From Agroathelia rolfsii (taxonomy: Eukaryota; Basidiomycota; Agaricomycetes; Amylocorticiales; Amylocorticiaceae), in the NCBI GenBank assembly GCA_018343915.1, contig JABRWF010000007.1, forward strand, positions 3,348,001-3,412,000: 64,000 bases of DNA. Direction: 5' to 3'. The position numbers and the translations under genes were made by a program. Positions 27,672 to 59,953 of this stretch are shown in pieces. The stretch's first letter is position 1; each line of letters opens with the position of its first letter. A model generated the notes under the pieces. It made no database searches, was not told the DNA's origin, and was given only the letters and a program-made list of their open reading frames with translations.

Positions 27672-28135
27672 GCTAGTCACGAGGTCAAAACAAAGAGATA
27701 ATAGGCACAAGGATTGGATTCAAAACTACTGTATCACACACAGAGCAGAAGCTGTTAGGATATGTGATCCACGTGCCGAGGCACATGATTTTATCTTTAT
27801 ATTTACGGTAGTTTACTTTATCGATCGTTATCCGTTTGACTACGTACAACGATGTACAAGTAGAAAAGCGGAATTTATTTTCTGTGTCGACTGCTGCTCT
27901 TCGTCGTCGCTCGTCGTATTTCCACAGAAGCAGACAAGTATTTATGTGAAACGCAATATACTCCCAAGCCTATCGATTACATGCAACAGATAAGAAGTAC
28001 TACTGAGTACCAGCAAACAACAGGGAATATGAAATTACAGACGAACGCCCGCTGTCATGAAGCGGGGCGTGACCGATCCGACGCAGCGGAACTGTGACAA
28101 GTAACGCTGCGCCGTTACACCAAAATACAGAAACT
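27672..28135. repeat. Old dispersed repeat, copy A (interrupted by a solo LTR)
   Basis: With the solo LTR at 27753-27926 removed, about 285 bp align with copy B at 31834-32276 in the same orientation. Shared words, in order: GTCACGAG, AGGCACAAGG, TTCAAAA.CTACTGTATC, CAGAGCAG, GTATTTAT, ACATG.AACAGATAAGAA, GAATATGAAATTAC, GAACGCCCGCTG, GCGTGACCGATC and CCGTTACA. No protein content; I could not define its true ends. Confidence 0.65.
27753..27926 (+). mobile_element. Solo LTR A (174 bp), TG...CA, TSD GAAGC
   Basis: Begins TGTTAGGATATGTGATCC, ends CGTATTTCCACA, with the 5-bp direct repeat GAAGC on both sides (27748-27752 and 27927-27931). TG...CA ends plus a 5-bp target duplication are the signature of an LTR retrotransposon; no internal coding region remains, so it is a solo LTR. 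It matches the reverse complement of the element at 31872-32046. Orientation relative to transcription is not determined. Confidence 0.72.
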
Positions 28136-28463: not shown

Positions 28464-29940
28464 ATGTCTTCAGGCCCCGAATCTCCTATGCAAATCCCTC
28501 AGATACAAAAAGGTGGGCACAGTGTTTTGCTTTGAACTATTAATATTGCTGATATTGCTCATGATTATCTACTTCGTTACTTTTGAAGCTTGGTATCAAA
28601 CCAAGCGTGCTAGATATACTGAGGCGCTTGAACTGAAATATGTTCCTGTTCCGCCGCCATTACCCGGGGATGTGCTTGTAAAAGGTAGGCCACTGTGCTA
28701 TGATCTTCTCTAGATTTTAAGGATAAACCCCATATAGTTCATTCCGTCGCGCTAAATCACGAATGGAAGACGTGGCCTTGGATTTCGTGGCCACTCAGAA
28801 CTCTACCTGCCATTCCCGGCACTGAATGCAGTGGTTGGGTTGCAGACGCCAATGGCATCTCGGAGTTTCAAAAGGGAGATGGTAATTGTTTCACAAAATA
28901 GCATTCGAACGGCACTGACATCCGCTATCATAGAGGTGATTGGAATTCTACCCCTGACGGGAAAAAAATCGCACTTTGGCAGTGGCAGAGGCACATTAGC
29001 GGAATATGTACTCATTCCGGTTTGTGCTATGCCTATGCTAGACTATATCATGATGCTAATTGAACCTTCAAGTCTGATATGCTCATCAAGAAACCAAAGT
29101 CAATGCCGTTCGAACAGGCTGCAGGCCTGAGTGGACTGGGTGTTACGGCCTACACTTTTTTGCATCTCATGGCTCATGTGCAGCCAGGTCAAAAGATCTT
29201 TATCAGCGGTGGAGGCACAGGTTGCGGATGGATGCTAACACAGCTTGCGAAGGCCGCCGGCGTACACGTTACAGTGAGCTGCTCTGCTTCCAAGTTCGAG
29301 CAACTCAAAAGCTTGGGAGCTGATGTGGTAGGTTTCCGTCTGATTTTTTACCTATGACACTTATTTAGAATTTCTCAGGTCTTAAATTACAAGTCTTTGC
29401 CGATAGTTGACCAAATCCTTGCACTGGATACTCAGTTTGACGCCGTTTTCGACTGTATTGGGGATCAATCATTATACCAATCTTCGCCAGGCTTTCTCAT
29501 TCCATCCGGTTCCTATTTGGCATTAAGCCCTGACTTGGGTGATATCACTAGTGTCTGGAAGGCTGTGCAAAAGATTACGTCCTTACTCTGCAATTATTGG
29601 CTGCCTGTGTGGGCTGGCGGTGTTCCTCGAGGGTATCAGTTCCGCAGTACGAAAATAACGAAGAAGGAGATGCTCAAACTTGCCCACTTATATGAAGACG
29701 GTAGGAGATACTGGCAAGTCTGCCATGTTACTGAATCTGATGATTGTTTTATTTTCATTTAGGGCACATTCAGGTTTTAATTGATTCTGTTCATACTTCG
29801 GATAAGACTGGCGTCCTCAAAGCATATAACCGAACTTCTTCCATGAAGGTAACTTATCCATGTTATGTATTTTGCTTAGGCGCTCATCCTACGCTACGCA
29901 GGCTAATGGGAAAGTTGTTATATCTATGGTTGACTTTTAG
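28464..29940 (+). CDS. MDR-superfamily oxidoreductase, paralogue 1
   Basis: Eight exons (28464-28512, 28589-28684, 28738-28881, 28934-29019, 29073-29327, 29379-29700, 29763-29848, 29902-29940) give 358 aa. Medium-chain dehydrogenase/reductase of the zinc-independent quinone oxidoreductase/enoyl reductase type. N-terminal GroES-like half: VHSVALNHEWK, ECSGWVAD, GTLAEYVLIP. NAD(P)-binding half: FEQAAGLSGLGVTAYT, the glycine loop ISGGGTGCGWM, FDAVFDCIGD, DSVHTSDKTGVLKAY and the end ANGKVVISMVDF. The catalytic-zinc Cys/His set of true alcohol dehydrogenases is absent. Substrate unknown; NAD(P)H reduction of an activated double bond or quinone fits the family. Paralogues at 47585-49061 and 49855-51334 have the same exon lengths except exon 1. 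This copy is more diverged and is separated from them by about 17.6 kb of largely mobile sequence. Confidence 0.85.
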
Positions 29941-31833: not shown

Positions 31834-32276
31834 CTGTCACGAGATCGAACAATGAAATAACAGGCACAAGGTGTTAAAATACAACGAGCGACGACGATGA
31901 GCAGCGGTCGACACAAAGAATTGTATTCCGCTTGTCTACTTGTACATCGTTGTACGTAGTCAAACGGATAGTAAACAAGAATGTAAACTACCGTAAATAT
32001 AAAGGCAGAATCATGTGACCCAGCACATGGATCACATATTCTAACACAAGGGTTGGTTCAAAAGCTACTGTATCGCACCCAGAGCAGACAGGTATTTATA
32101 CTAAAATACTATCTCCTCCCAAATCCATCGTCCACATGTAACAGATAAGAAATACGACCGAGTATCACCAAGCGTGAGAGAATATGAAATTACTAGCGAA
32201 CGCCCGCTGCCCTGCAGCGCGGCGTGACCGATCTGACATAGCGGGGCCGTGACAAGCAATGCTGCACCGTTACAGA
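31834..32276. repeat. Old dispersed repeat, copy B (interrupted by a solo LTR)
   Basis: Same repeat as 27672-28135 and in the same orientation, but the solo LTR (31872-32046) sits at a different position within it, so the order of shared words around the LTR differs between the copies. Removing both LTRs restores collinearity. Confidence 0.65.
31872..32046 (-). mobile_element. Solo LTR B (175 bp), TG...CA, TSD CAAGG
   Basis: Begins TGTTAAAATACAACGAG and ends TATTCTAACA; the 5-bp repeat CAAGG flanks it (31867-31871 and 32047-32051). It is the reverse complement of solo LTR A over nearly its whole length (shared words include TACATCGTTGTACGTAGTC and AAACTACCGTAAATATAAA). Strand is given relative to A. 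Confidence 0.72.
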
Positions 32277-32521
32277 CGCAGTCACAGTCACGCGGAGTGT
32301 GACTATGGTTTATGTTGCTACGGATTTTTGTAGTAGTTATTTTATTCGTTTGTCCGCGTACCGCGTCCAAGTACAACGACAAGCGTAATTCAATCTAGCT
32401 TTTGACTTATTACTGGCTGGCCCGCTTTTCTCATAGGTAGAAGGTGCAAGAGCCGGTTTCGAAGTCGCAACCTTGTCAGCAAGCGTCACTGGGTTGATCA
32501 TGATGTAACCGCCACGCCATG
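32277..32521. other. Left flank of the large inverted-repeat element
   Basis: No gene. The last three bases, ATG at 32519-32521, match ATG at 43275-43277 immediately after the element. Confidence 0.5.
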
Positions 32522-32557
32522 CACTCTGGTTATTTATAAGTAACAACCAAAAATATA

Positions 32558-32905
32558 TATATAGTTTTACAATAATATTTACTTTGGGTATAATCTTATG
32601 TAATACTAGTGTTTTTACATCAAGTAAAAACCTAGGATTTACATTGGTTTTTATATTAAGTAAACCAATAAGTAAATATAGCAACTTGAGCCAAAGTAAA
32701 ATCAGTAGTTTTACCTAAAGTAGAATTTCTGACATTTTTACTCAGGGTAAAGCTATTGTATTTACCAGAAAATTTACTCTAGGTAAAACCATTCAGGGTA
32801 AAACCGTTGTATTTACTATAAAATTTACTCTAGGTAAAACCATTAGTAAAACTATAAGTAAAAACCATCCGTGGTTTTACTCCGAGTAAAACCAAAAGTT
32901 TTACA
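32558..32905. repeat. Subterminal TTTAC...GTAAA palindrome array
   Basis: About ten short inverted units of the form TTTAC-n4/5-GTAAA: for example TTTTACTCAGGGTAAAG, TTTACTCTAGGTAAAACC (twice) and TTTTACTCCGAGTAAAACC. Both half-sites also occur singly. Such clustered subterminal motifs are where transposases of CACTA-type elements bind. The mirrored array in the right arm is 42891-43238. Confidence 0.6.
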
Positions 32906-32920
32906 TAATCACCCCGATTA

Positions 32921-33027
32921 GGTCGCCTAGGTGCCTACATCGCCTAGTAGTGGTCGCCTGGGTGCCTACATCACCCAGTATACATCACCTAGTAGTGGTC
33001 GCCAGGGTGCCTACATTGCCCAGTAGT
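32921..33027. repeat. Tandem repeat, about 31-bp unit, three copies (left arm)
   Basis: Copies start GGTCGCCTAGGTGCCTACAT (32921), GGTCGCCTGGGTGCCTACAT (32952) and GGTCGCCAGGGTGCCTACAT (32997), each ending in CAGTAGT or CTAGTAGT. The second copy has an internal 14-bp duplication. Mirrored at 42769-42875. Confidence 0.7.
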
Positions 33028-33958
33028 GAGTGCCCTACTTACATCTCCAAAGGTGCTCAGAGAAAAATTCACATTGCCCAAGCAATCTAGTCTATTTACT
33101 AATCACCAGTCAGGCAATCCAATCCATTCACTAATCACCAGCCAGATGCTTATTCAGGTAACTCAGTTTAGTAACAAGTTGCTGTTTGCATATTGAATGA
33201 GGCAATCCATCCTGGTTCCCTTACCGTTTAGATGCCTAATCATTAATTTAATCTCTTTTATTATATAGAGGGCCAGTGCGCCTAACACTATCTACAAGGC
33301 TATATAGCTAAACTAAACCACCACCTCCTCCCGCCTGATGAACTTCAAATTGTTTGAAGGTTCTTGTCTAGCGCACAAATCATAGGCGATGTACTACTAC
33401 TTAAGACAATACATGAGAGCAACCATTGATCTGAGGAACGTTAGTGCAGAATCCAGCTGTTGGAAGAGGTCCTTGGGGCCTTCCAAAGGGGTCTAAGAGG
33501 AGCTGACACAAGTAATTGTTGTGGTACATGCGGCGACGTAATTGTCTTGGTCGAATTTTGCATCCAACTAATCACGTACCTGAGTTTGGGGCATGGCATT
33601 TACATAATTGTAAGGGGATTAGGGCTTTATGGAAGTACAGCAAAAATGACGTATTATGGAACAAGAGTCATTGGCTATTTGAGCCATTGCAATATTACAA
33701 ATGTGTAAATAAATAAATAAAATGATATAGTTTGCTAGGTATCCCAATGAAAACTGCAGAAAATAGCATAACATACGCATTAATAAAAGACCAAGGTTGC
33801 AAAAGGGTTAGTTTATACCTTGGCAGGTTGGTTTCTGCCGCGTCCAACTCCTTAAGCATCTGAATGGCCTGTGCAAGCCAATTTTAATTTATTTTAATGC
33901 TGTCGGTTGCATCTTCAAGGGTATTGATTAAAAAATGGCGCAAGGCCTCTTTGTGCCT

Positions 33959-34210
33959 TTATTTTTTGTGTGAGTAGATAGTATGATAAGAACAATGAGT
34001 AGAATACTCAGGATCATTCTCGTCGATTGGATCCTTTGGTAGAAATGAGTCTCTGGCCCTCAGTTTGTCGCGTAGTTTCTTTCTGTTCTTGATCTCGGCG
34101 GTATACTCCTCTACGCAATTAAAAATGAACATGAGAAGATAATCTCGCATAGTCATGTCTTGTTCAGTCATAGATGAAGACGACGAAGACAACCCGGATG
34201 ACATAGACAT
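33959..34210 (-). other. Small open frame in left arm
   Basis: An 83-codon frame starting MSMSSGLSSSSSSMTEQDMT, with a basic helix RKKLRDKLRARD; unknown function. Identical to 41586-41837 (+) in the right arm, and a diverged copy lies at 39080-39415 (+) at the edge of the core. Three copies within one element suggest it is part of an ancestral element gene, possibly an N-terminal exon. Confidence 0.35.
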
Positions 34211-35275
34211 GGTTGATATGAGTGAAGAAGGGAGTCAGGGTTAGAAAGCCAAGATAGCTCGGATGAATCGACAACGATCGAGTGAATGCTTTATGGTGTG
34301 ATTACCCTGCATGGTTTAGATAGGAGAGAGACCATGGCACATATATGGAATAGTTATAGTTACCGCCACTTAATATTCTAATTACTACTTCAAACCAGTG
34401 TAACGTGGCTCAAATCATAAGTAATTACCTACAAGTAGTACAAATATTGTGCTTCACCTAACGAAGCTGGAACTAGCTTTTGAGCAGCTCTATCCTGGTA
34501 GGGCTATTACGCCATTCCTAATTGCGTGGCCACCAGGATACAATCATGTACTTAGTCAAAGGGAATATATTGACCTGAGAAATAAAACAATACTGGGTAA
34601 AAGGGGGTATGGAAAGTGCTTTCAGGTGTAGGAGTAGATCTATGCCGGGTCGCAACATCATCGCCGGAGGCACAGGGGTATGGTAGGAGCCATAAGGAAT
34701 TTGCGAAATAAACGGTGAGGGGAAATATGAAAGGGGGTATGATGCAAAATGAGAAAAGAAGATGGAAAGGAGGAAAAGAAAAACAGACAAGGAAACTATG
34801 TACAAACATCTAGTGTCATGGAAAGCTGTGAAAGGATGAGTGACCACAAAATGAGGTTATTGCACATACTGCAGAGCAAGCAGCCTGGTAAGGGAGATGA
34901 GAGTAAGTTAAGTAATGCCCTAGGATAGTGTATCAACATTTATTCATCTTACATATTGGATGGAATGGATAACTCACCACATGAACACCACTCGGAGTGT
35001 CTTCGAATGGAAACGAAGCATATCTCCAATTAAAATACTGGAATAGACGTCAGAAGGGAGGAAGATGCGATGCGCAAGCCATTGAGCAGAAATCTGCTGC
35101 TCACAATGGCATCCGGAGCTTGAGATCTTGAGAGAACGTCATGATCCAGTTGTCGATACTGTTGATAGGTAACTAGCAAAGGGGTGACAGAGTAAGAACC
35201 AGAAATCATGGAGTGAAAGCCATCAAGCAGCAATCCGCCGCTCGACATGGCCTCAGATTTCTAGGAGGGCACCAT

Positions 35276-36030
35276 CCAGTTGTGGATGCACAACTGGGAA
35301 TGGCACCCATGCGTACCAGTGGTCGTCGTCAAAGAGCAACTCAAAGCAGCAAGGCCGAGTGATCATGATCACGCTGTCACGATTACTGTGACATATCACG
35401 GCGCAGTGATCACCCCTATAGCGATAAAGATCATGTGAGTTTTACTGAATCGGTAATATCTGACTCTTCTGCATCAGATCCATACTTTTCTTTCACTTCG
35501 GATCTAGAAAATTAGTGCATGAACAGGAATGTTCAATAAAGACATAGGCCAACATTTAGTAAGTTCTTCTCGCTCTTTCTTATATTGAAAAGCCTTGGCG
35601 TAGTGCTCGTTAATCGTCAATTGATGGATTTCGGAGACTTCATCAGACTCAGCGTCAGAGAGCATGCTGAACAAGATACCGGGGACGCGGGTGCCCAACG
35701 CTAAGCGCCCGAGCCTATATTTATTCGAGTCAGCCCTACACACAACAGCTTCGTAGCCAACTACCACCATTGCGGGGTCGTTCCCGGTTGTGCATCCACA
35801 GCCGGACGATCTTCCGCCCTCTTGTCAACACGATGGTCCTCTGGTCTTAGCCAGGTTATCTTGTCGTCCCGGCCACGGATCGTGGCCGACCGGCGTTGAT
35901 GACTTGGTGGTGGTTGTTTTTAGCGGCGGATCGCTGCTCTAACAACTATTCGTCAAGACTGTTGTTGTCTTCCCATCTCTTGCTTTTTACTATTAATATT
36001 CTCCGCTCCCGGCTGTGCATTCACAGCTGG
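35276..36030. repeat. Three 22-bp hairpin motifs (left arm)
   Basis: Hairpins with 9-bp stems and 4-nt loops at 35276-35297, 35784-35805 and 36009-36030. In right-arm orientation they read CCAGTTGTG-CATC-CACAACTGG, CCGGCTGTG-GATG-CACAACCGG and CCAGCTGTG-AATG-CACAGCCGG. Mirrored at 39766-40520. Confidence 0.55.
35445..35665 (-). pseudogene. KRI1: Captured 5' fragment of KRI1 (left arm)
   Basis: The frame contains MLSDAESDEVSEIHQ, LTINEHYAKAFQYKKERE and, after an intron-like gap, EKYGSDAEESDITDS. This is the N terminus of Kri1, a nucleolar 40S assembly factor, including its conserved start and the boundary to the second exon. The remaining several hundred residues of Kri1 are absent. Exact mirror of 40131-40351. 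Confidence 0.72.
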
Positions 36031-36527
36031 ACAACCTTCTGCTCCCTTGTCATCAACACAATGATTCTCTGGCCTTAGCTAGGTCATCTCGTCGTCCACG
36101 GCCATGGATCTCTTGCTTTCTATATCAATCTCCTCTGCTCTTAGCTGACCTGAATTCAACTGCTGGTTGACTACTCATCAGGGTTGTTTTTGTTTTTGTT
36201 TTTGTTTATTTCCGTTACTCGTTCTCCGACGACACACGATCCTAGCCGTGTGGTTGGGCTCAGCAGCCTCCAGCCAGGACATCTTTTAGAAACCTAACGT
36301 CTCATTATTCTCAGCCGTGGACCATAGTTGACCAGGCAGTACCAGGTTCAGGGCGCATATTACAGGCTGGGTTATTTTAGATAAAAAGCGATGTCGTGCC
36401 ACTGAATTTATGCAGGTTATTTTTACTGGATATTTAATAGTGTCAAATGAGGATTATTTCACAAATAAAAAATCAAAATACATGAGTAATACATATACAA
36501 ATACTAAGATATTGGTCCATAGTTGGC

Positions 36528-39221
36528 CTATATTAATAAATCAAGGAATGAGCATATTGCGATCCTTAGAAATTTACAACCTACCATAATCACCGCAGAA
36601 GATGAAGCTTCAATCGTGTTCCTCAGTCTTTTCGTTAAGCGGAGGCCGGGGAGATTGTCCCATTTCTTCGGCCAGGCTCTACCATCCCTCATCTGATTAA
36701 GCTCATGTTGAAACCATCGCTCGTTTTCAGCAGTCCGGAGAGCATGATTGGAGCTACTTGTTCGCCATTCATTTGGACGTGGCCACCATGACAAAGCTGT
36801 ATGGCGGACTGTACCAGCGGGGCCAGGTGTTTCCACGAGATATGTGCCGACAATGAGACTCATTTCCTCAGGGGAGAGACCGTCATCAGCAAGTGGCTCC
36901 GATGAGTATGTGTCTGGAATAAGGACACAAAACTCCTGTCGCTCAGCAATATGGGTAGGTCCAGAAATTACCTGGTCAATAGCAGACGAAAGTCCACCCA
37001 CTTCTAGAGCGATCCGCCATACGATACCTCCATGCATTAGCGCCGCACGACGAACATGTGATTTCGAAAGAAGCTCTTTTCGCTGCAGTTCATATGAGAT
37101 GTAATCATCACGAGTAGGCTGCCAGTCTTGAGAACGCCTGAATTTTGGAAATACTGTAGGTCTGCAATTGCCCGCTGCTTGTTTTACATCAGGCAAAGGC
37201 CTGTGAGATGCAGTCGTAAACGACAAACCATTCCGAAGAAGTCCTTCCACCAGTTTTTGGATGGTTACTTCATCGGGAACAAGGTCGCCAAGCCTTACGC
37301 AAAAGAAGGCCGTTGTAGCTGAGTTAAGTAGTAGCAGCCATTGTGAAACCATAGGCCGCCGGGTATCAACTTGGTACCATGTGTGGTCTCCTGACACGCG
37401 CAGTCGCAGAACTACGGTTGAAGACGGTTTGATAAGTAAGTTACCGTCCCAGAGTCCATTAGGTAGGCTCTCTTTCTCTGAGATGGATTTCGCGCAGACC
37501 CTTAACCAATTCTGCTCTTGTGTCTGGAGAATGGCATTGCCGTCCCCAAAGATGCTATTGACTTTTTGGTCCGTTAGACGGAACTTCTGGAGGAGCACCC
37601 TGCAGATTCAAACCATAGAACAGCTGAAGCGATTGCTCAAATGCCATAGCAGGTGAGGTGGATGAAGTAGTCGGCGAAGCACTGCCTTCGGGCTGGGCGG
37701 AGCAATCTACGAGTAAGCTGTGCGGGGCTGCAGGGAGAGCGATAGGGAGTGGTACCGGAGCGACATCATCTGCAGTTGGAACCGAGTAATGGGAACTATG
37801 AATAGGAATGGGAGATATGGCAGAGGAGACAAGGTCAGAAGAAGAGGAAGGAATAACGCGGGTATTAGACGTATCAGAGGGTAAATGCGCAGTATGTACT
37901 AAAGGCGAGATATCCTGTATAATAAGTTAACCCTAAAATGAGATCATTTACGGAAGAAACAGCAATGGCTACTTACAGGTGGGGTAGAACTGACGAGGGC
38001 TGTGATAAGAGGACGAGGGGAATAGCGAAACTCAGGTAAGGATGAAGCAGTGAGGACGTCTTGTTGTATCTCATCTGCGTGATTACTGCCAGGGGACCGC
38101 TCTATGTTGCCTGCATGATTACTGTCCGGGGATTTGGACCGAAATTCGTTGAAAGAGTCTATTTGATCATCTCCCGAAAGATCAGAAATCTCATACTGAC
38201 TGGTTTTCCAGGTATCCGGCCTCCCGGCAACCAAAGGAACAGGAAATGAAAAATCATCACATAGGTCCCACTCATCGCAGAAGCTATCGTAATGTCGTTG
38301 TGACTTCGAATAACTCTTCCATACATCAGTGATATCGTCTTTCGCAACTTGCTCTCGCTCCCAAAAACCATTTCCGTCTTGCGACCACAGCCAAACATGA
38401 AAAGCCTTTCTTTGGGGCACGAGATACTTCTTGGACTCCTCAAAGCGACAGAGACGAAGGCTTGCCTGCTGAGGTGTTTGCTTTTCCGCCTTGCAGGCAT
38501 TTTCAACGTCTCGGCGAGCAAAAAAGTTTCGCCAAGACTCTCCCGGTTTTTGTCCACTCTGGGCAACTGGACGAGGAGGGTTGGAAGATTGGCGAATCTC
38601 GATGACAGGCGGCTGATGTCCCGCGACACTGAGTGTCGTCTGGATTTCGTCCGTGGTTGGATAGAGCAGGTCGAGGAGGCCAAGTGACCGAGGATGTGAG
38701 GGTAAAGGGACTGGACCCCAGTTAACCCACATGGGAACTCCAAAATACAGCATTTTTTGTGCCGTTAACACAGCCAGGCCGGACGTACATGTTGCCGTTA
38801 GATATTCATCTTGGCCAGTGAAGTCCCAAATAGCACCTACTCGATGGACGATCTCCGAGCCAAAGATGACGCCTGCTTGAATCAGGTGGCGGGTGAAAGA
38901 GGGAGGAATATCGTGCTCTGCCAGATATGCAACTAACTTTGCATCGAAGTTGGCAATGTCTAAGTCATAATTGGAGGTGGGCTCGAAGCCACACGCAACA
39001 AGCCACGAGATCTCACTCATAAGGCCAAAAAAACATGCTTCTATACTCCCTGACTCCTTTACTTCTTCACTTATAACAACCATATCTACGTCATCTGGGC
39101 CATCTTCGTCGTCTATATATACGGCTGAACAATTTGAGTCTTTGTCTATGCCCATGACCATGCAAGATCGTCTTTTTATGTCTATTTCAAATCGCGAGAA
39201 AGAGTGCTCCGCCCAAATCAA
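36528..39221 (-). CDS. Core gene of the element: uncharacterised agaric protein family, probably frameshifted
   Basis: Exon 1 (37977-39221) ends at GTAAGT; exon 2 begins at 37914 after TATACAG. I recognise the type only as a recurring uncharacterised Agaricomycete family. Seen: an N-terminal segment SNYDLDIANFDAKLVAYLAE and VLTAQKMLYFGVPMWVNWG, the SWRNFFARRDVEN helix, RHYDSFCDEWDLCDDF, a Ser/Pro-rich hinge, then QPTRDDYISYELQRKELLSK, ALMHGGIVWRIALE, LSWWPRPNEWR and an acidic-to-basic tail. No DDE/D triad, zinc finger or helicase motif was found, so I cannot call it a transposase. Near 37590 the frame shifts by one with no room for an intron; either a frameshift or an unseen splice. The N terminus before about residue 55 overlaps a sequence homologous to the arm open frame on the other strand, so the true start may be internal. 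Confidence 0.6.
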
Positions 39222-39415
39222 TTACATGACTGAAATATGAAAAATGTTGACGGGCAAAGATTCATTTTTTTCCAATGACGACGACGTGGATGACAACAAT
39301 GCAGACGACGGCGATGATCATAAGTATTTAATTCTCCATTCTTGTTGTATCATCTACTCATGAAAATTAAGATACAAGGAGGCCCTGCGCAAATATCTCC
39401 TCTTCATCCTTAAAG
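39080..39415 (+). repeat. Diverged third copy of the arm open-frame region, at the core edge
   Basis: On the plus strand this stretch aligns with 41583-41890 of the right arm in the same orientation: matching words are TCATCTGGG.C.TCTTCGTCG, GCTGAACAA, ATGACCATGCAAGAT and TCATCTACTCA. The ATG of the arm copy is ATA here and the frame is broken. It overlaps the 5' end of the core gene on the opposite strand. Confidence 0.55.
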
Positions 39416-40130
39416 ATGCAATAACCCAGCCTGTAATATGCGCCCTGAACCTGGTACTGCCTGGTCAACTATGGTCCACGGCTGAGAATAATGAGACGTT
39501 AGGTTTCTAAAAGATGTCCTGGCTGGAGGCTGCTGAGCCCAACCACACGGCTAGGATCGTGTGTCGTCGGAGAACGAGTAACGGAAATAAACAAAAACAA
39601 AAACAAAAACAACCCTGATGAGTAGTCAACCAGCAGTTGAATTCAGGTCAGCTAAGAGCAGAGGAGATTGATATAGAAAGCAAGAGATCCATGGCCGTGG
39701 ACGACGAGATGACCTAGCTAAGGCCAGAGAATCATTGTGTTGATGACAAGGGAGCAGAAGGTTGTCCAGCTGTGAATGCACAGCCGGGAGCGGAGAATAT
39801 TAATAGTAAAAAGCAAGAGATGGGAAGACAACAACAGTCTTGACGAATAGTTGTTAGAGCAGCGATCCGCCGCTAAAAACAACCACCACCAAGTCATCAA
39901 CGCCGGTCGGCCACGATCCGTGGCCGGGACGACAAGATAACCTGGCTAAGACCAGAGGACCATCGTGTTGACAAGAGGGCGGAAGATCGTCCGGCTGTGG
40001 ATGCACAACCGGGAACGACCCCGCAATGGTGGTAGTTGGCTACGAAGCTGTTGTGTGTAGGGCTGACTCGAATAAATATAGGCTCGGGCGCTTAGCGTTG
40101 GGCACCCGCGTCCCCGGTATCTTGTTCAGC

Positions 40131-40351
40131 ATGCTCTCTGACGCTGAGTCTGATGAAGTCTCCGAAATCCATCAATTGACGATTAACGAGCACTACGCCA
40201 AGGCTTTTCAATATAAGAAAGAGCGAGAAGAACTTACTAAATGTTGGCCTATGTCTTTATTGAACATTCCTGTTCATGCACTAATTTTCTAGATCCGAAG
40301 TGAAAGAAAAGTATGGATCTGATGCAGAAGAGTCAGATATTACCGATTCAG
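40131..40351 (+). pseudogene. KRI1: Captured 5' fragment of KRI1 (right arm)
   Basis: Plus-strand mirror of 35445-35665: the Kri1 start and first about 37 residues (to REELTK at 40241), an intron-like insert, then the EKYGSDAEESDITDS segment ending near 40351. The ORF is open upstream to 40026 because non-coding sequence before the Kri1 ATG happens to be open. No further KRI1 sequence follows. Confidence 0.72.
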
Positions 40352-41585
40352 TAAAACTCACATGATCTTTATCGCTATAGGGGTGATCACTGCGCCGTGA
40401 TATGTCACAGTAATCGTGACAGCGTGATCATGATCACTCGGCCTTGCTGCTTTGAGTTGCTCTTTGACGACGACCACTGGTACGCATGGGTGCCATTCCC
40501 AGTTGTGCATCCACAACTGGATGGTGCCCTCCTAGAAATCTGAGGCCATGTCGAGCGGCGGATTGCTGCTTGATGGCTTTCACTCCATGATTTCTGGTTC
40601 TTACTCTGTCACCCCTTTGCTAGTTACCTATCAACAGTATCGACAACTGGATCATGACGTTCTCTCAAGATCTCAAGCTCCGGATGCCATTGTGAGCAGC
40701 AGATTTCTGCTCAATGGCTTGCGCATCGCATCTTCCTCCCTTCTGACGTCTATTCCAGTATTTTAATTGGAGATATGCTTCGTTTCCATTCGAAGACACT
40801 CCGAGTGGTGTTCATGTGGTGAGTTATCCATTCCATCCAATATGTAAGATGAATAAATGTTGATACACTATCCTAGGGCATTACTTAACTTACTCTCATC
40901 TCCCTTACCAGGCTGCTTGCTCTGCAGTATGTGCAATAACCTCATTTTGTGGTCACTCATCCTTTCACAGCTTTCCATGACACTAGATGTTTGTACATAG
41001 TTTCCTTGTCTGTTTTTCTTTTCCTCCTTTCCATCTTCTTTTCTCATTTTGCATCATACCCCCTTTCATATTTCCCCTCACCGTTTATTTCGCAAATTCC
41101 TTATGGCTCCTACCATACCCCTGTGCCTCCGGCGATGATGTTGCGACCCGGCATAGATCTACTCCTACACCTGAAAGCACTTTCCATACCCCCTTTTACC
41201 CAGTATTGTTTTATTTCTCAGGTCAATATATTCCCTTTGACTAAGTACATGATTGTATCCTGGTGGCCACGCAATTAGGAATGGCGTAATAGCCCTACCA
41301 GGATAGAGCTGCTCAAAAGCTAGTTCCAGCTTCGTTAGGTGAAGCACAATATTTGTACTACTTGTAGGTAATTACTTATGATTTGAGCCACGTTACACTG
41401 GTTTGAAGTAGTAATTAGAATATTAAGTGGCGGTAACTATAACTATTCCATATATGTGCCATGGTCTCTCTCCTATCTAAACCATGCAGGGTAATCACAC
41501 CATAAAGCATTCACTCGATCGTTGTCGATTCATCCGAGCTATCTTGGCTTTCTAACCCTGACTCCCTTCTTCACTCATATCAACC

Positions 41586-41837
41586 ATGTCTATGTCATCC
41601 GGGTTGTCTTCGTCGTCTTCATCTATGACTGAACAAGACATGACTATGCGAGATTATCTTCTCATGTTCATTTTTAATTGCGTAGAGGAGTATACCGCCG
41701 AGATCAAGAACAGAAAGAAACTACGCGACAAACTGAGGGCCAGAGACTCATTTCTACCAAAGGATCCAATCGACGAGAATGATCCTGAGTATTCTACTCA
41801 TTGTTCTTATCATACTATCTACTCACACAAAAAATAA
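41586..41837 (+). other. Small open frame in right arm
   Basis: Identical 83-codon frame to 33959-34210. Downstream, another open stretch (LEDATDS, then MLKELDAAETNLP near 41935-41975) may be a continuation across stops or introns. No known domain. Confidence 0.35.
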
Positions 41838-43389
41838 AGGCACAAAGAGGCCTTGCGCCATTTTTTAATCAATACCCTTGAAGATGCAACCGACAGCATT
41901 AAAATAAATTAAAATTGGCTTGCACAGGCCATTCAGATGCTTAAGGAGTTGGACGCGGCAGAAACCAACCTGCCAAGGTATAAACTAACCCTTTTGCAAC
42001 CTTGGTCTTTTATTAATGCGTATGTTATGCTATTTTCTGCAGTTTTCATTGGGATACCTAGCAAACTATATCATTTTATTTATTTATTTACACATTTGTA
42101 ATATTGCAATGGCTCAAATAGCCAATGACTCTTGTTCCATAATACGTCATTTTTGCTGTACTTCCATAAAGCCCTAATCCCCTTACAATTATGTAAATGC
42201 CATGCCCCAAACTCAGGTACGTGATTAGTTGGATGCAAAATTCGACCAAGACAATTACGTCGCCGCATGTACCACAACAATTACTTGTGTCAGCTCCTCT
42301 TAGACCCCTTTGGAAGGCCCCAAGGACCTCTTCCAACAGCTGGATTCTGCACTAACGTTCCTCAGATCAATGGTTGCTCTCATGTATTGTCTTAAGTAGT
42401 AGTACATCGCCTATGATTTGTGCGCTAGACAAGAACCTTCAAACAATTTGAAGTTCATCAGGCGGGAGGAGGTGGTGGTTTAGTTTAGCTATATAGCCTT
42501 GTAGATAGTGTTAGGCGCACTGGCCCTCTATATAATAAAAGAGATTAAATTAATGATTAGGCATCTAAACGGTAAGGGAACCAGGATGGATTGCCTCATT
42601 CAATATGCAAACAGCAACTTGTTACTAAACTGAGTTACCTGAATAAGCATCTGGCTGGTGATTAGTGAATGGATTGGATTGCCTGACTGGTGATTAGTAA
42701 ATAGACTAGATTGCTTGGGCAATGTGAATTTTTCTCTGAGCACCTTTGGAGATGTAAGTAGGGCACTCACTACTGGGCAATGTAGGCACCCTGGCGACCA
42801 CTACTAGGTGATGTATACTGGGTGATGTAGGCACCCAGGCGACCACTACTAGGCGATGTAGGCACCTAGGCGACCTAATCGGGGTGATTATGTAAAACTT
42901 TCGGTTTTACTCGGAGTAAAACCACGGATGGTTTTTACTTATAGTTTTACTAATGGTTTTACCTAGAGTAAATTTTATAGTAAATACAACGGTTTTACCC
43001 TGAATGGTTTTACCTAGAGTAAATTTTCTGGTAAATACAATAGCTTTACCCTGAGTAAAAATGTCAGAAATTCTACTTTAGGTAAAACTACTGATTTTAC
43101 TTTGGCTCAAGTTGCTATATTTACTTATTGGTTTACTTAATATAAAAACCAATGTAAATCCTAGGTTTTTACTTGATGTAAAAACACTAGTATTACATAA
43201 GATTATACCCAAAGTAAATATTATTGTAAAACTATATATATATTTTTGGTTGTTACTTATAAATAACCAGAGTGATGAGGCTTCTTAGTTTTCCTTCGAT
43301 ACCATTCATTTGTCGAACCATTTCTTTCGAGTTTCTACTGAGGCTGAGCGCTGAAAAATGTTAATACTAATGAAAAGGATTATATATAT

Positions 43390-47584: not shown

Positions 47585-49061
47585 ATGGCCGCACAATCCG
47601 TCCCTCAAGTACAGAGAAGTAAATCGATCCTGCTAGTGATGGCCTTGGCAAGAACCCTGTCTTATATATCCGATTATTCTCAGCATGGTTTCAGATAAAA
47701 CGAGCCAAATATACCGAGGCACTTGAACTTCGATATACCCCAGTTCCAAAACCTTCCGCCGGCGAAATACTAGTCAAGGGTGCGTATGCTGCTGAGACCT
47801 ACTACCTGAAGCCGCTTATTGAAGCTAGTGGTATTGTCGATAGTTCATTCCGTGGCACTCAATCATGAATGGAAGCTCATGCCTATCCTTCCGTGGCCTC
47901 TTAAAAGCCTTCCCGGCGTCCCCGAGATAGAATGCAGTGGATGGGTCGTAGACCCGAATGGACACTCGGAGTTTCAAGAGGGAGAGGGTATTTGGTTTAA
48001 TTCAAGTCATCAGAATTGTTTTTTCACCGAAATGAACTTATAGAAATCATTGGCGCACTACCCATATGGGGCAAGGGTTCTCACGTCTCGGGTGGCCGAG
48101 GCACATTAGCAGAATATATCCTCATGCCTGTGCGTTTTATGCTTTTCCCACTTTATGCACAAACCAATATTTTTCTTTCACTCGTCTTAGGCCGACATGG
48201 CTGTTAAGAAGCCCAAGTCGATGTCATTTGAGGAGGCCGCTGGGCTCAGTGCTATTGGCGTCACGGCCTACACTTTTATTCACACCTTGGCCCATGTGCA
48301 GCCCGGGCAGAGGATCTTCATTAGTGGTGGTGGCACCGGCTGCGGTTGGATGTTGATTCAAGTCGCCAAAACTGTCGGCGCTCATGTTACGGCCAGTTGT
48401 TCAGCGGCAAAATTCGAACAACTGATGGGCGTCGGCGCTGACGTGGTGCGTCTTTTCGCTTCGTTACTCCTATTCGATTCTTAAAATTCTGTAAAAAGCT
48501 CTTGGACTATCAATCTTCCCCAATCACGAAGCAACTGATCGAGTCTGGGGCACAATTCGATGTAATTTTCGACTGTCTTGGTGACCAACCGCTATATCAG
48601 GCTTGTCCAAGCTTTCTTGTTCCCTCTGGCCAGTTCTGGTCTCTTACTCCTGACGTTGGCGACCTTTCGAGTTTCTCGTCATTCGTCCGAAAGTTCGGGT
48701 CGCTCTTGGTAAATCTCTGGTTGCCAGTATGGGCTGGTGGGGTGCCGCGGCATTATCAATTCCGCAGCGCATACATCAAAAGGGTTGAAATGGAGAAGGT
48801 TGTTCAGCTTTACGAGAGTGGTATGATACAGCTATCGATCCCGATCCCCCAGCGAGAAACAACTAATGAAACGTATATTAGGTCATATTAGGATATTAGT
48901 TGACTCGGTTCACCCGTCCGATAAAACTGGCGTTATGAAAGCATATGATCGTGTGTCTTCAATGAGGGTAAGTTTTGCTGCCTCTTCAGAGACGCTTCCT
49001 GAAATTTTGATCTGTCTCCTAGGCCAATGGGAGAGTTATCATATCAATGATTACCTCCTAA
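47585..49061 (+). CDS. MDR-superfamily oxidoreductase, paralogue 2
   Basis: Eight exons (47585-47618, 47684-47779, 47844-47987, 48044-48129, 48191-48445, 48499-48820, 48882-48967, 49023-49061) give 353 aa. Same zinc-independent MDR type as paralogue 1: VHSVALNHEWKLMP, EIECSGWVVDPNGHSEFQEG, GGRGTLAEYILMP, the nucleotide loop ISGGGTGCGWM, DVIFDCLGDQPLYQ, PVWAGGVPRHYQFRS, DSVHPSDKTGVMKAYDR and the end ANGRVIISMITS. Exons 2-8 are the same length as in the other two copies. It is closest to paralogue 3, with which it forms a head-to-tail tandem. Substrate and pathway are not determined. No defects seen. Confidence 0.86.
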
Positions 49062-49670
49062 GGAAAATGCTATCGTATCCCGTGCACAGCATACCATATA
49101 TAGCTAATCCCGTGCTCCATCACAGTCTCTAATCCAGGCACCTATTTCAAACAGGCTTCGTGTTGGCCTGCTTTCCCGTATTCTGTGTTTATTATGCCAA
49201 AGTATATGCTTCATGATTTACACGTGCTCAATTTAACCCATGAATCCTCTTGTGTATCCGAGCAGTTGATTGAGCCAAGGACACAGTCTGATATACGTTT
49301 GACCTCATTGACGATCAACCGCAATAGCGTGGGCAGTAGAAGCATGTGGACATGTAGGTGTAGTATATGAATAATGATATAATAAGTAGACTCTGGATAT
49401 ATGCGCAGCGAAATTTGATGTTCTGGACGTGCTTATCCAAAAAGCCGCGCATCAATTTTTTTATCCTCTACTGTGACGAATTGAGACCATGAAATCATGT
49501 AAGACACTGGCATTACATGTGGTTAACAGCATCCTCCGCCCGTATCGGAGAATCCAAATCCCATCACGTTTTGCTTCCGTCTTTGTCAACTGTGCCTTCA
49601 CGTGTAATGGTGGCAACGTCATCTGACGCAGCTTAATCATGATATCTATAGCAATCGCATACTACCCGCA
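49062..49670. other. Spacer between MDR paralogues 2 and 3
   Basis: Contains a decayed MDR exon-6 fragment (see next entry). The rest is AT-rich sequence without a coding signal. Confidence 0.45.
49256..49330 (+). pseudogene. MDR exon-6 remnant
   Basis: This stretch follows the start of MDR exon 6 base by base: GAGCAGTTGATTGAGCC here against AAGCAACTGATCGAGTC in paralogue 2 (48522 on), then ACACAGTCTGATATACG against GCACAATTCGATGTAAT, then GATCAACCGCAATA against GACCAACCGCTATA. Translated, SEQLIEPRTQSDI parallels TKQLIESGAQFDV. Diverged and isolated from other exons. Confidence 0.55.
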
Positions 49671-49854: not shown

Positions 49855-51334
49855 ATGGCTGCACAATCCGTCACGATCCCTCAAGTGCAGAGAAGTAAAG
49901 TGATCCGGGTGTTCCATGCTGGTTCTCCGTCTTATGTATCCTATCGACTTCAGCGTGGTTCCAGACAAAACGAGCCAAATATACTGAGGCACTCGAACTT
50001 CAATATGCCCCAGTTCCAAAGCCCTCCGCCGGTGAAATACTAGTCAAGGGTGCGCATGCTATTGAGCTTGATCATATTGAACCAGTTGCTGAGACCAACA
50101 ATATCATTTATAGTCCATTCTGTGGCTCTCAATCATGAATGGAAAATCATGCCTGTTTTCCCATGGCCTCTTAGACGGTTTCCAGTTATCCCCGAGTTGG
50201 AGTGTAGTGGGTGGGTCGTAGACCCAAATGGACATTCAGAGTTCCAAGAGGGAGAAGGTAATCAACTTTTATCGATGAGGCCATATAGATGTGTTCTCAT
50301 TGAAATGAATTTGCAGAAGTTATTGGCGTCCTGCCTATGTGGGGGAAGGGCTCTCACATCTCGGGTGGCCGAGGTACATTAGCAGAATATATCCTCATGC
50401 CCGTATGTTTATTTATTTATTTTTCCTCCAATCTATACATGAGAGTAAATCTTTCACCCGCCTTAGGTCGATATGGCTGTTAAGAAGCCCAAGTCAATGT
50501 CGTTCGAGGAGGCCGCCGGGCTCAGTGGTATTGGCGTCACAGCCTACACCTATATTCACGTCTTGGCGCACCTACAATCTGGGCAGAAGATCTTCATTAG
50601 TGGTGGCAGCACTGGATGCGGTTGGATGTTGATTCAAATGGCCAAAGCCGTAGGCGCTCATATTACGGCCAGTTGCTCGGCTGCGAAATTCGAACAACTG
50701 AAGGGCTTCGGCGCCGACGTGGTGCGTCTCTTCAAATTCCTGTTGCCCTCTGCCTCTCAAAGTCCTTTGAATAGCTCTTAGACTATAGGTCTTCCCCAAT
50801 TACGAAGCAACTGATCGACTCCGGAACACAATTCGATGTGATTTTCGACTGCCTTGGTGACCAACCGCTATACCAGGCTTGTCCACATTTTCTCTCACCC
50901 TCTGGCCAGTTCTGGTCTCTTACTCCTGACGTTGGGGACTTCTCGAGTTTCTCATCATTTTTGCGAAAGTCCGCGTCAGTTGCAGCAAACTTCTGGTTGC
51001 CAGTATGGGCCGGTGGGGTGCCACGACATTATCAATTCCACAGCACAAACATCAAGAGAGCTGAAATGGAGAAGGTTGTTCAGCTTTACGAGAGCGGTAT
51101 GATACGTTTTTGGATCTATCGGTGAGAAACAACTGATTGAATGTATTTCAGGACATGTTCGGACGTTGGTGGATTCGGTTCACCCGTCCGATAAAACTGG
51201 TGTCATGAAAGCATATGATCGCGTCTCTTCAATGAGGGTGAGTTTTTTTTGTCATTATAAAGAAGCCTTTCTGAAATTTATGATCTATCTCCTAGGCTAA
51301 CGGAAAGGTCATCATATCAATGATTATCTCCTAA
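49855..51334 (+). CDS. MDR-superfamily oxidoreductase, paralogue 3
   Basis: Eight exons (49855-49894, 49954-50049, 50114-50257, 50317-50402, 50467-50721, 50775-51096, 51152-51237, 51296-51334) give 355 aa. Motifs match paralogue 2: VHSVALNHEWKIMP, ECSGWVVDPNGHSEFQ, GGRGTLAEYILMP, FEEAAGLSGIGVTAYT, FDVIFDCLGDQPLYQ, PVWAGGVPRHYQF, DSVHPSDKTGVMKAYDR. The glycine-rich nucleotide loop reads ISGGSTGCGWM, with Ser in place of the Gly of the other two copies. No catalytic zinc ligands. The N terminus has two extra residues after the common MAAQSV start. Intact frame throughout. Confidence 0.86.
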
Positions 51335-51576
51335 GAACATTGTCCTATCTTGTGCAACGTATACCATATAATCATATCCCTCTCATATTCCCCAAATCTA
51401 GGTGCTTATTTCAGAAATGCTTCGTATTAAACTGTTTCCTCGCACTCCATATGCTATACCATCAATGCATATACACAACTACTGCCTTCATTATATGCAT
51501 GTATTCAATCCAGCCTAGGAGTCTCTTCCATATCGAATTAACTGAACAAATTAAGGATGTATATAGACTATCAATC

Positions 51577-57756: not shown

Positions 57757-59953
57757 TCATGTCCGTACATCCTTTTCTAGATCAAGTATCTCCCATTCAC
57801 GCTGGGCATCCTCAAATGCCTTCTGAATTATTGCCGCCTTCCCAGATGAACGTGGGTGGAAGACGACTGGGAACATCTTGACTGCGCTGATAGTACCTGC
57901 TGTAAAAGTCCCCTCTTCGTCATTGATGTCCGGTATGATGGGTTCTCTTGAAATAGGGTCCATTGGCGCCTGGAAGTCGATACCCCAGATGAGCCGGGAA
58001 AGAACGATAAACAAGGCTGCTTCTGCTATATAAGATCCCTGACAGATGCGACGTCCCCAGCCAAATATATAGCTAATTTGATTTAAAAATATGTGGATGA
58101 TGAGGAGACAGCTGAACACTTACTAGGGTCGTTCATGACTTTCAGGTGCACCCTCCGGTCGGGTACTACTATCTTCCCGCAAATATCGTTCGGGATCAAA
58201 CGCCAAGGGGTTGGGGAACTTGCGCGGATCCATGTGGATCGCCCATATGTTCCCAATTACCATGGTGCCTTTTGGGATGAACATACCATCGTACCAATCA
58301 TCCTCGATGACAGAATGTGGGATTCCTAAGTATTTAAACTACTTAGTCACCTTTTACAAGAATGCAAGCAAGAAATAAATAAATAAAACACACCCATGAT
58401 CACCGGAGGTCTGCGCCGCAGTGTTTCCTTGATACAGGCCGTGAGATAAGGAAGTTTTTTCTCGTCGTCAAAGTCGGGCATACGATTATCTCCGACAACT
58501 GCATCCATTTCTTCGCGGATACGGCGTAATACTTGGGGATGGCTGAGCATGAAAAGAATGAAGGTCTCGATGGATATGGCAGTCGTATCAGAGCCCGCCT
58601 CGAGTGGAGTGGCGGCCACATAAGCCAGTAATGTGTCCTTAATCCACCCATCTGCTGTCAGCCCCTTTCCGGGAGCATCAAGAAATCCGGCTTCACTCCG
58701 CTGTTGGAGATAAGAGGAAACGAAAGTATTTGGGTTTCTTCCGTTTCTAATATCATCTTTACATTCCTGCAGTAAGCCTCCCCACAGTTCCATCTCCCTA
58801 TATAGAGCTCGCATTTAATTTTCATCTCAAAAAAAAAGTGAATGAAGCAAAACAGAACAAAAAACTTGCCCTTTGTGTAAACTTTTTCCTACTGCTCGCC
58901 ATGGTGCAAGTAAGTCTGGGAGTTTTCGCAGAATAGGGAAAACATCGGCACTAGACAAATGGTATCCATTTGTCAATTTCAAAACTTAGGATACAATTAG
59001 TACTCACAAGTAGCTTCCCGGTGCTCCGTGGTTTGCCAAGTTGAACATAGCATCGTATATCTTATGCCTATGATATTTTTCAAGTCATTGAAACCAAGTT
59101 ATATGCAGGTTTACCAACATTCGCACATTTCCTGTATTCTGATTTAGGCGCTTTCCATAGATGTGAATCAGCTGCACGCTAGTTGCCTAATGAGATGCCG
59201 TAAGCAAAGAAAGACCCGAAAATTGCTCCAAAGCTCACATAACGACGGATCAACGAGAACCAATGCTTGTCTAGTATTTCCTGGGGTTGAGATTCTCTAT
59301 TGCCACCGTCATCACTACCAGCCTTCAAAAGACTTTGATCCCTATGCATCATAAGATCCCACATTAGGACTCTCGATTCCAGTTCTTGTATAGTCCGCAA
59401 TTTCTTTGAGGGAATGGGGCCTAGGGCGCCTTGAAGCATTTTGCGTGCAGCCTATATGCAATGTTTTGATACTACTCTTTTTCCAGATAAATGTGAGTTC
59501 CGGCATTAGACCATACCTTCCACTCTTCTCCATAGGGTAAGAAGACTGGCCTCGAGCCATCACTCATCAGATCGTGTACAATATGAGGCGGAACACGACT
59601 CGAATATATTTTGCTCCTATTCCCAAGTAGCTCGTCGGCAGCGTGAGAGGAGCTGAGGACGACGACAGTCTGGGATCCGAGCCGAAGAGAGAAGATTTCT
59701 CCATAATGTTTCGCCCACTCGAGAAACTAAGATAGAATACGTTAGATGAATATTAATCAACATTTGAACGTCGGTCAATTGCCTTTGGATGCGGTCGGAG
59801 GATTGGTATCTGGAAGTAATTGCCGAAGATTGGAATGCCAGATGGCCCGGGTGGCAGCCTCGTAAGGTTTAATTTGGTTTTGTATTTCCACAGATAAAAG
59901 ATAGACAAAAGAATACCAGAAACGGCAGCATAGAATTCCCGCAGTGAGAGCAT
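57757..59953 (-). CDS. Cytochrome P450 monooxygenase, paralogue 1
   Basis: Nine exons (59783-59953, 59517-59726, 59239-59451, 59119-59186, 59008-59067, 58870-58950, 58394-58797, 58124-58325, 57757-58072) give 574 aa. N-terminal membrane anchor (FYAAVSGILLSIFYLW) then basic KYKTK and the Pro hinge LPPGPSGIPIFGN; I-helix oxygen motif AGSDTT, K-helix ExxR in KETLRR, PERY segment, and the heme loop FGWGRRICQG with the Cys ligand. ER-bound oxidase; substrate unknown. Two introns use GC donors at positions where paralogue 2 has GT: after HPK (CCAAAG|GCAATT) and after LHKG (AAAGG|GCAAGT). A weaker alternative donor 21 nt later at the first site would add seven residues. Exons 2 and 4-9 match paralogue 2 in length. 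Confidence 0.85.

Follow-up and report, generated by a model that had tools for sequence, protein, structure and literature searches.

What kind of unit is it that, in a 64,000-nucleotide window of the Agroathelia rolfsii genome, sets two long inverted arms around a unique core, and by what means does it move? The earlier note had described a 10.75-kb element with inverted arms of 3.86 kb, CACT-type ends, a flanking ATG on both sides and a 3-kb core; BLAST and a comparison of the arms confirm this description, which is exact to the single base. The inverted-arm element occupies 32522-43274 (10,753 bp), has the termini CACTCTGG...CCAGAGTG, and is bounded on the outside by a direct repeat of ATG on the forward strand, the 3-bp target duplication (32519-32521 on the left, 43275-43277 on the right); the inverted BLAST match runs on to 32518-43277, taking in the flanking CATG/ATG. 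The left arm (32522-36376, forward strand) and the right arm, its inverse (39420-43274, reverse strand), are each 3,855 bp long with a sole mismatch, at 32894, and enclose a unique core of 3,043 bp (36377-39419). Close to the tips, GTAAA/TTTAC motifs in both orientations form a left subterminal block (32566-32904), in which a 51-bp unit is repeated in tandem, and its mirror on the right (42892-43230, coordinates mirrored from the left block); the first 360 bp hold 21 such motifs, where 3.4 are expected on average and 1,000 shuffles never gave more than 9. The longest stop-to-stop frame contained entirely within the left arm measures 112 aa, and an Rfam search gave no match. Apart from its two tips, the element contains CACTCTGG or its complement at a single place, 38555 in the core; a composite of two complete inverted transposons is ruled out, the inner ends of the arms having no such terminus.

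The unit is a real, mobile DNA transposon family that has probably been active recently. Six full-length copies with identical ends and different flanks are present in the 37.7-Mb host genome (10,753 bp for the window copy; 10,753, 10,753, 10,764, 10,674 and 10,764 bp for the others), and the sixfold recurrence of a unit some 10.7 kb long with these ends rules out a chance origin. A genome-wide search with a 27-bp tip pattern, allowing up to three mismatches, returns 12 matches, which are both ends of the six copies (11 exact, one with one mismatch; none for the reversed control). The copies thus have the sharp ends and varying 3-bp duplications that the earlier note had named as support for a mobile element: the duplication is perfect in five of them (ATG, CTC, AGT, ATT and TAT) and imperfect in the sixth, at C1:894899-905572, with TAG and TAT as flanks; the probability of at least five perfect duplications in six by chance is about 6e-9. 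Two copies have paralogous empty sites that are uninterrupted across the insertion point and carry a single target triplet, one locus for C1:2169290-2180042 (86% over all 400 of the joined flank bases) and three for C1:68735-79498 (80-84% over 232-241 of 400 flank bases, just 40-49 of the matched bases belonging to the left side). With a 15-bp tip and one mismatch, five additional matches appear in the genome, all unpaired (seven in the reversed control), and no other element with these tips was found there, nor any fragment, solo end or deletion derivative, in searches that give lower bounds.

The earlier note gives CACTA elements terminal inverted repeats (TIRs) of tens of base pairs, and subterminal repeats in both orientations are one of their traits; the element resembles them in its subterminal repeats, which are dense and in both orientations, and differs in its arms of 3,855 bp. 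Its ends are of CAC..GTG type in all six copies and its duplication is of 3 bp, as described for fungal EnSpm elements (Kojima 2025; PMC12730594). It departs from CACTA/EnSpm (CMCT) again in its core protein, in all 860 aa of which C(2)C and H(3-4)H motifs, reported as common to CMCT transposases, are absent (PMC12730594). The element appears to work like CACTA; membership of CACTA/EnSpm is not established and is not claimed here, since no EnSpm-type DDE transposase was recognised, and an autonomous partner could lie outside the genome. A genome search with the profile PF02992 gave no match, with control genomes equally silent. Plavaka, also of the CMCT group, is likewise fungal and makes 2-3-bp duplications, but its tips are given as TGT..ACA or CATCA..TGATG (PMC12730594), against CACTCTGG here, and its transposase (PF18759) is not in the element: the eight genome matches to this profile, on C2 and C6, all lie outside the six copies, and seven of them contain stop codons in a search that disregarded introns. 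From KDZ (Kyakuja-Dileera-Zisupton) the element differs in its 3-bp duplication, against the 8 bp described for Zisupton (PMC12730594); the KDZ profile PF18758 had no match in the genome and was silent in the controls as well.

The reading that we favour, with a probability of about 0.68, combines CACTA/EnSpm-like recognition, cut-and-paste of the complete unit, enlarged arms kept alike by conversion, and capture of a piece of KRI1. A transposase would recognise the CACTCTGG tip together with the clustered subterminal GTAAA motifs, and the complete unit would move by cut-and-paste with a 3-bp staggered insertion. Inverted duplication would have enlarged the arms to 3.9 kb; in each copy, a break in one arm would then be repaired from the other by gene conversion, while recombination between copies would give rise to mosaics, and a genomic piece of KRI1 was copied from the host in the course of the element's history.

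A single gene of appreciable size was found in the element; it lies in the core on the reverse strand (36528-39161), with a first exon at 39161-37977, an intron of 62 bp (37976-37915, GTAAGT...ACAG) and a second exon from 37914 that, when read as in the intact copies, ends in a stop at 36530-36528. It reads 860 aa in the three B copies; the other three, which have an A core and include the window copy, lack 11 bp at about 37572, and the resulting frameshift leaves 514 aa. No known domain was matched by the 860-aa protein: Pfam, with 8 of the 21 listed frames, and the NCBIfam and PDB sequence searches gave nothing above cut-off. Sub-threshold Pfam matches on one arm frame (TrbM, E 0.0024; DUF562, E 0.039) were dismissed as noise, and weak PDB matches (E 0.4-2.4) and PF23599 on P0001 (E 0.072) were set aside. 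In protein searches, no candidate out of 3,074 reached E 0.1 for a 425-aa frame, and none out of 7,989 that were scored reached E 0.01 for the spliced 860-aa protein; viral and bacterial/archaeal contigs held no useful relative, and one metagenome protein shows 38% identity over 88% of a C-terminal query. The structure models are uninformative and too poor for a fold search (mean pLDDT 34 and 36). Among the variable sites of the gene, 21 are amino-acid-changing and 2 silent, where 7.5 silent would be expected (P 0.008), a result of little weight as it comes from one test on 23 sites, with the 3' half out of frame in three copies. An older relic, matching the 5' region of the gene, lies in each arm (33909-34240, forward strand, and 41556-41887, reverse strand, by mirrored coordinates; 67.5% over 117 bp, 80% over 85 bp), and the gene has thus probably long been part of the element's lineage. 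A weaker relic of the region of its C-terminal SWWPR motif lies in the left arm (34485-34586, reverse strand), with E 0.001 for P0001 and 0.016 for the core protein in a search confined to arm and core. Mushroom genomes contain many proteins with FFARR..SWWPRP-like motifs.

The earlier note's mobile element with CACTA-like ends and no recognisable transposase stands; its new class or non-autonomous unit is no more than a candidate reading, and there are two alternatives, which differ in the source of the enzyme. We give an even chance to a non-autonomous macro-element, in which the core gene rides along as a passenger while the transposase comes, or once came, in trans from an EnSpm/CACTA-like element that this strain lacks or has lost or that escaped detection. 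The lack of a recognisable transposase in the element and the fast change of the core protein point this way, as does the captured host fragment, which recalls plant Pack-TYPE elements, described as non-autonomous (PMC8903248); yet the paired tips are found solely in the six copies, the Plavaka-like stretches are mostly broken by stops, and Plavaka tips, beginning TGT or CATCA (PMC12730594), are different. Possible, but the more doubtful of the two, is an autonomous element whose core gene encodes the transposase of an undescribed family with CACTA-like ends and 3-bp duplications. The gene is the sole sizeable one, has one well-formed intron and is intact in three of six copies, the genome yielded no donor element, fragment or solo end with such tips in lower-bound searches, and the metagenome protein and the relic in the arms are consistent with this; the missing CMCT motifs, the uninformative models, a ratio of changing to silent sites unlike that of a conserved enzyme and the frameshift in the other three copies argue against it. 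Should the core protein be shown to be a transposase, it would represent a new enzyme family. We think it unlikely that, beyond this, the protein belongs to a new cut-and-paste family with convergent CACTA-type ends and that the element relies on giant arms renewed by conversion, a damaged end being repaired from the other; this would explain why every copy found is complete and why no fragment, derivative or solo end turned up in the genome.

The arms of the element evolve in concert. Within copies, the two arms differ at 1, 0, 1, 1 and 2 positions, and at 37 in one mosaic copy, whereas arms of subfamily A, to which the window copy belongs, differ from those of subfamily B at 39-45 (mosaic excluded), a divergence of about 1.1%. 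The divergence is rich in transitions, for which CpG methylation would account. Private changes are present in both arms in 14 cases and in a single arm in 4 (a further one-arm change, 33000 in C1:4226130, being uncounted as another copy is deleted at that position), and the copy at C1:894899 has a private deletion of 45 bp in both arms. In the mosaic copy, 33 of 39 diagnostic sites are A on the left and B on the right, five are A in both arms and one is B in both; it has apparently been caught midway in homogenisation. The subfamilies are not cleanly separated, since C1:894899, grouped with B, is A in its left and right arms alike at 13 of these 39 sites. The homogenising process is probably gene conversion in place, although the arms may instead be made alike during transposition. 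Mobility of a replicative or hairpin-templated kind, as in Polintons or linear plasmids, with one arm copied from the other at each transposition, would suit arms that are long, inverted and near-identical in five of six copies despite the divergence between subfamilies; we hold it to be very improbable, since the arms of the mosaic copy differ at those 33 sites despite its perfect AGT duplication. Polinton/Maverick elements have a protein-primed polymerase, an integrase and a 6-bp duplication, and the 3-bp duplications here, together with 8 searched frames in which neither a polymerase nor an integrase domain was found, tell against such mobility and rule out membership of that group.

Long inverted modules may also be low-copy repeats other than transposons, as in the Anopheles inversion 2Rj, but an origin by segmental inverted duplication or through an error of assembly is ruled out for practical purposes by the six copies with shared ends in differing flanks, the target duplications, the empty sites and the arms of the mosaic copy, which are resolved as different and thus not merely collapsed. 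The 2Rj modules, of 14.6 kb with near-identical inverted arms of 5.3 kb around a 4-kb spacer, are two insertions without coding capacity, unlike the element, and were judged non-transposon by their authors (PMC1952172). Long TIRs have a precedent in Galileo of Drosophila, whose TIRs reach about 1.2 kb, with an upper limit near 1.26 kb in D. mojavensis, and which behaves similarly: its arms are more alike within than between copies (>99% in GalileoN-1 and -2), and recombination has made chimeric copies (PMC3573991, PMC2775673). The Galileo chimeras described have mismatched duplications, in contrast to the perfect AGT pair of the mosaic here, and Galileo, of the P superfamily, has 7-bp duplications and a P-type transposase; membership of P/Galileo is ruled out by the size of the duplication, with no matching domain in 8 frames. 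The element is a combination of CACTA-like ends with Galileo-like giant, homogenised arms. It unites fungal CACTA-type ends and concerted, recombining arms that are described apart in the literature compared, and among titles and abstract openings on long TIRs no fungal element of such build was found. Its six copies, of which one seems to be in mid-homogenisation, make it possible to test directly how long TIRs arise and are maintained.

The left arm also contains a 233-bp fragment (35445-35677, reverse strand) that is 92% identical to C3:4203533-4203765 in the host and recurs in the right arm (40119-40351, forward strand, mirrored coordinates). It comprises an apparent start codon, the first coding stretch, a 58-bp intron, positioned from the reading frame of the host gene, and the start of the next exon; the host gene KRI1 supplied this genomic piece, intron retained, to the element. 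Plant Pack-TYPE/Pack-CACTA elements likewise hold a host-gene fragment inside CACTA-like ends (PMC8903248), but the element has a fungal host, carries its fragment in both arms and bears the core gene as well, which three copies have in intact form. Lying within a near-perfect inverted repeat of 3.9 kb, the KRI1 piece is predicted to give rise to a hairpin RNA matching KRI1.

The element that the earlier note described as 3.86-kb inverted arms around a core of about 3 kb occupies positions 32522-43274 of the window (C7:3348001-3412000), with arms of 3,855 bp each, which differ at a single base, and a core of 3,043 bp. The genome search proposed in that note, with the first 200 bp or so, yields at least 12 matches to a 201-bp end query in the 37.7-Mb genome of 8 contigs, paired at each of at least six places. 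Full copies lie in the window (10,753 bp) and at C8:2929959-2940711 (10,753 bp), C1:2169290-2180042 (10,753 bp), C1:4226130-4236893 (10,764 bp), C1:894899-905572 (10,674 bp) and C1:68735-79498 (10,764 bp); all six are complete, and no fragments, solo ends or short derivatives are among the matches listed for end, arm, core and tip queries against the whole genome.

The copies are flanked by 3-bp target duplications that vary between sites, as the same note had anticipated for a mobile element: five of six are perfect, and all five differ (ATG, CTC, AGT, ATT, TAT). The sixth copy, C1:894899, has TAG on the left and TAT on the right; among the repeat matches listed, those of its left flank stop at the junction and those of its right flank start no more than a few bases from it, which may mean that another insertion next to the copy changed the triplet. 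In this right flank, at C1:905573-905775 (L016 5373-5447), ARAGORN predicts a tRNA-Tyr whose anticodon, ATA, is unusual; it lies within a repeat, possibly a young tRNA-derived SINE, that has 98-99% identical copies elsewhere. When left and right flanks are joined (400 bases) and compared with the genome, the empty sites sought are found as paralogues for two copies: C1:2169290 matches a C2 locus (86% over 400 of 400 bases), and C1:68735 matches three loci among the matches listed (80-84% over 232-241 of 400 bases, with 40-49 bases left of the junction), the junction being crossed with a single triplet at each locus. The empty triplets are AAT and TGT, versus AGT and TAT, respectively, at the occupied sites. 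The other four copies have no junction-spanning match among the best 40 of 580 candidates.

The arms evolve in concert within copies. Subfamilies A (window, C8) and B (C1:4226130, C1:68735, C1:894899) differ from each other at 39-45 arm positions and 16-21 core bases; the two arms of one copy differ at one position in the window, at none in C8, and at one, one and two in the B copies. Of the copy-private changes, 14 are shared by both arms and four are confined to one, a tally that omits a one-arm change at 33000 in C1:4226130 because C1:894899 is deleted at that site; a 45-bp deletion of C1:894899 is present in both arms. The arms of this copy are closer to B (24-27 differences) than to A (39-42), but at 13 of the 39 diagnostic sites both of them carry the A variant. 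C1:2169290, with 37 arm-to-arm differences, is a mosaic, A in the left arm and core and B over most of the right arm: 33 of the 39 diagnostic sites are A on the left and B on the right, five are A on either side and one is B on either side, and the B arm is interrupted by an A patch (mirror sites 35015-35190). The most economical explanation is that an A copy recombined with a B copy and that patchy arm-to-arm conversion came afterwards; the perfect AGT pair of C1:2169290 means that conversion took place at the site or that the copy transposed when already mosaic. Variable arm sites are mostly transitions (57/63, 28 of these at CpG, which makes up 240 of 1,640 C-dinucleotides), a bias as expected of methylated repeats.

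The longest stop-to-stop frame inside the arms is 112 aa. Near the tips, GTAAA/TTTAC occurs 21 times in both orientations (3.4 expected) and may be a functional motif. Both arms also carry a captured 233-bp fragment, 92% identical to C3:4203533-4203765, of a host gene identified as KRI1 by Pfam Kri1 and Kri1_C matches; 17 of its 19 differences from the host are transitions. Within it are an apparent start codon, a 58-bp intron and a portion of the exon that follows; the retained intron shows that DNA rather than mRNA was the template of the copy. An inward-pointing 5' relic of the core gene (promoter region and first codons) lies in the arms as well, with a weak trace of the gene's C-terminal motif. 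Homology of the relic to the core gene starts at most some 20 bases from the right arm/core junction, suggesting repeated insertion or joining of a gene module at this point.

The core gene (36528-39161, minus strand) is interrupted by a 62-bp intron (borders GTAAGT..ACAG) and reads 860 aa in the three B copies; in the other three, whose core is of type A, 11 bp are missing and it reads 514 aa. Its variable coding sites across six copies comprise 21 replacements and 2 silent changes versus 7.5 silent expected (P 0.008, assuming the same mutation types, on few sites), hinting at change that is diversifying or (fully) relaxed. The earlier note saw no recognisable transposase, and nothing above noise emerges from Pfam (eight open frames), NCBIfam and PDB sequence searches. 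We give about even odds to a transposase supplied in trans. That the core protein is itself the transposase is possible but less likely. A metagenome protein, P0001, shows 38% identity to it across 88% of a 359-aa query. The 860-aa form lacks both C(2)C and H(3-4)H, motifs common, according to Kojima (PMC12730594), to the transposases of the CMCT group, which includes EnSpm/CACTA and Plavaka. The element works like a CACTA element; as no transposase has been identified, CACTA membership is not established.

Our favoured reading is a CACTA-like, putatively cut-and-paste element whose giant arms would be held alike by gene conversion. The arms likely arose by break repair that copied one end from the other and ran on inward, as the authors working on Galileo, a Drosophila transposon with long TIRs, propose for that element (PMC3573991). 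Galileo resembles the element in within-copy arm similarity and chimeras but has 7-bp duplications, versus 3 bp here, and TIRs shorter than 3,855 bp (PMC2775673); Pack-CACTA elements show the same kind of host-gene capture (PMC8903248); the Anopheles 2Rj module has the same build, and its authors concluded that it is no transposon (PMC1952172); and Styx of Zymoseptoria, a large fungal element, differs in its 36-bp TIRs and recognisable transposase (PMC10853768). CACTA-like ends joined with kilobase arms do not appear among the titles and abstract openings listed by the literature searches, a scope outside which lie most subscription papers and Repbase.

Plavaka transposase remains occur elsewhere in the genome, at C6:4167054-4168227, C2:5073217-5074257 and C2:2086686-2086808; seven of eight Plavaka-matched stretches contain stop codons, introns not being allowed for. 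In the window, a short repeat pair adjoins the element (27753-28119 / 31877-32274; 170 bp inverted at 86%, 197 bp direct at 79%). To the right of the element lies a direct duplication of about 1.5 kb (47601-49100 / 49877-51370, 79% identity); 28734-29234 also resembles parts of the first copy, at about 76%. A second direct duplication, about 2 kb long, is split into two pieces (57764-59858 / 60926-63018, 77% and 73% identity).
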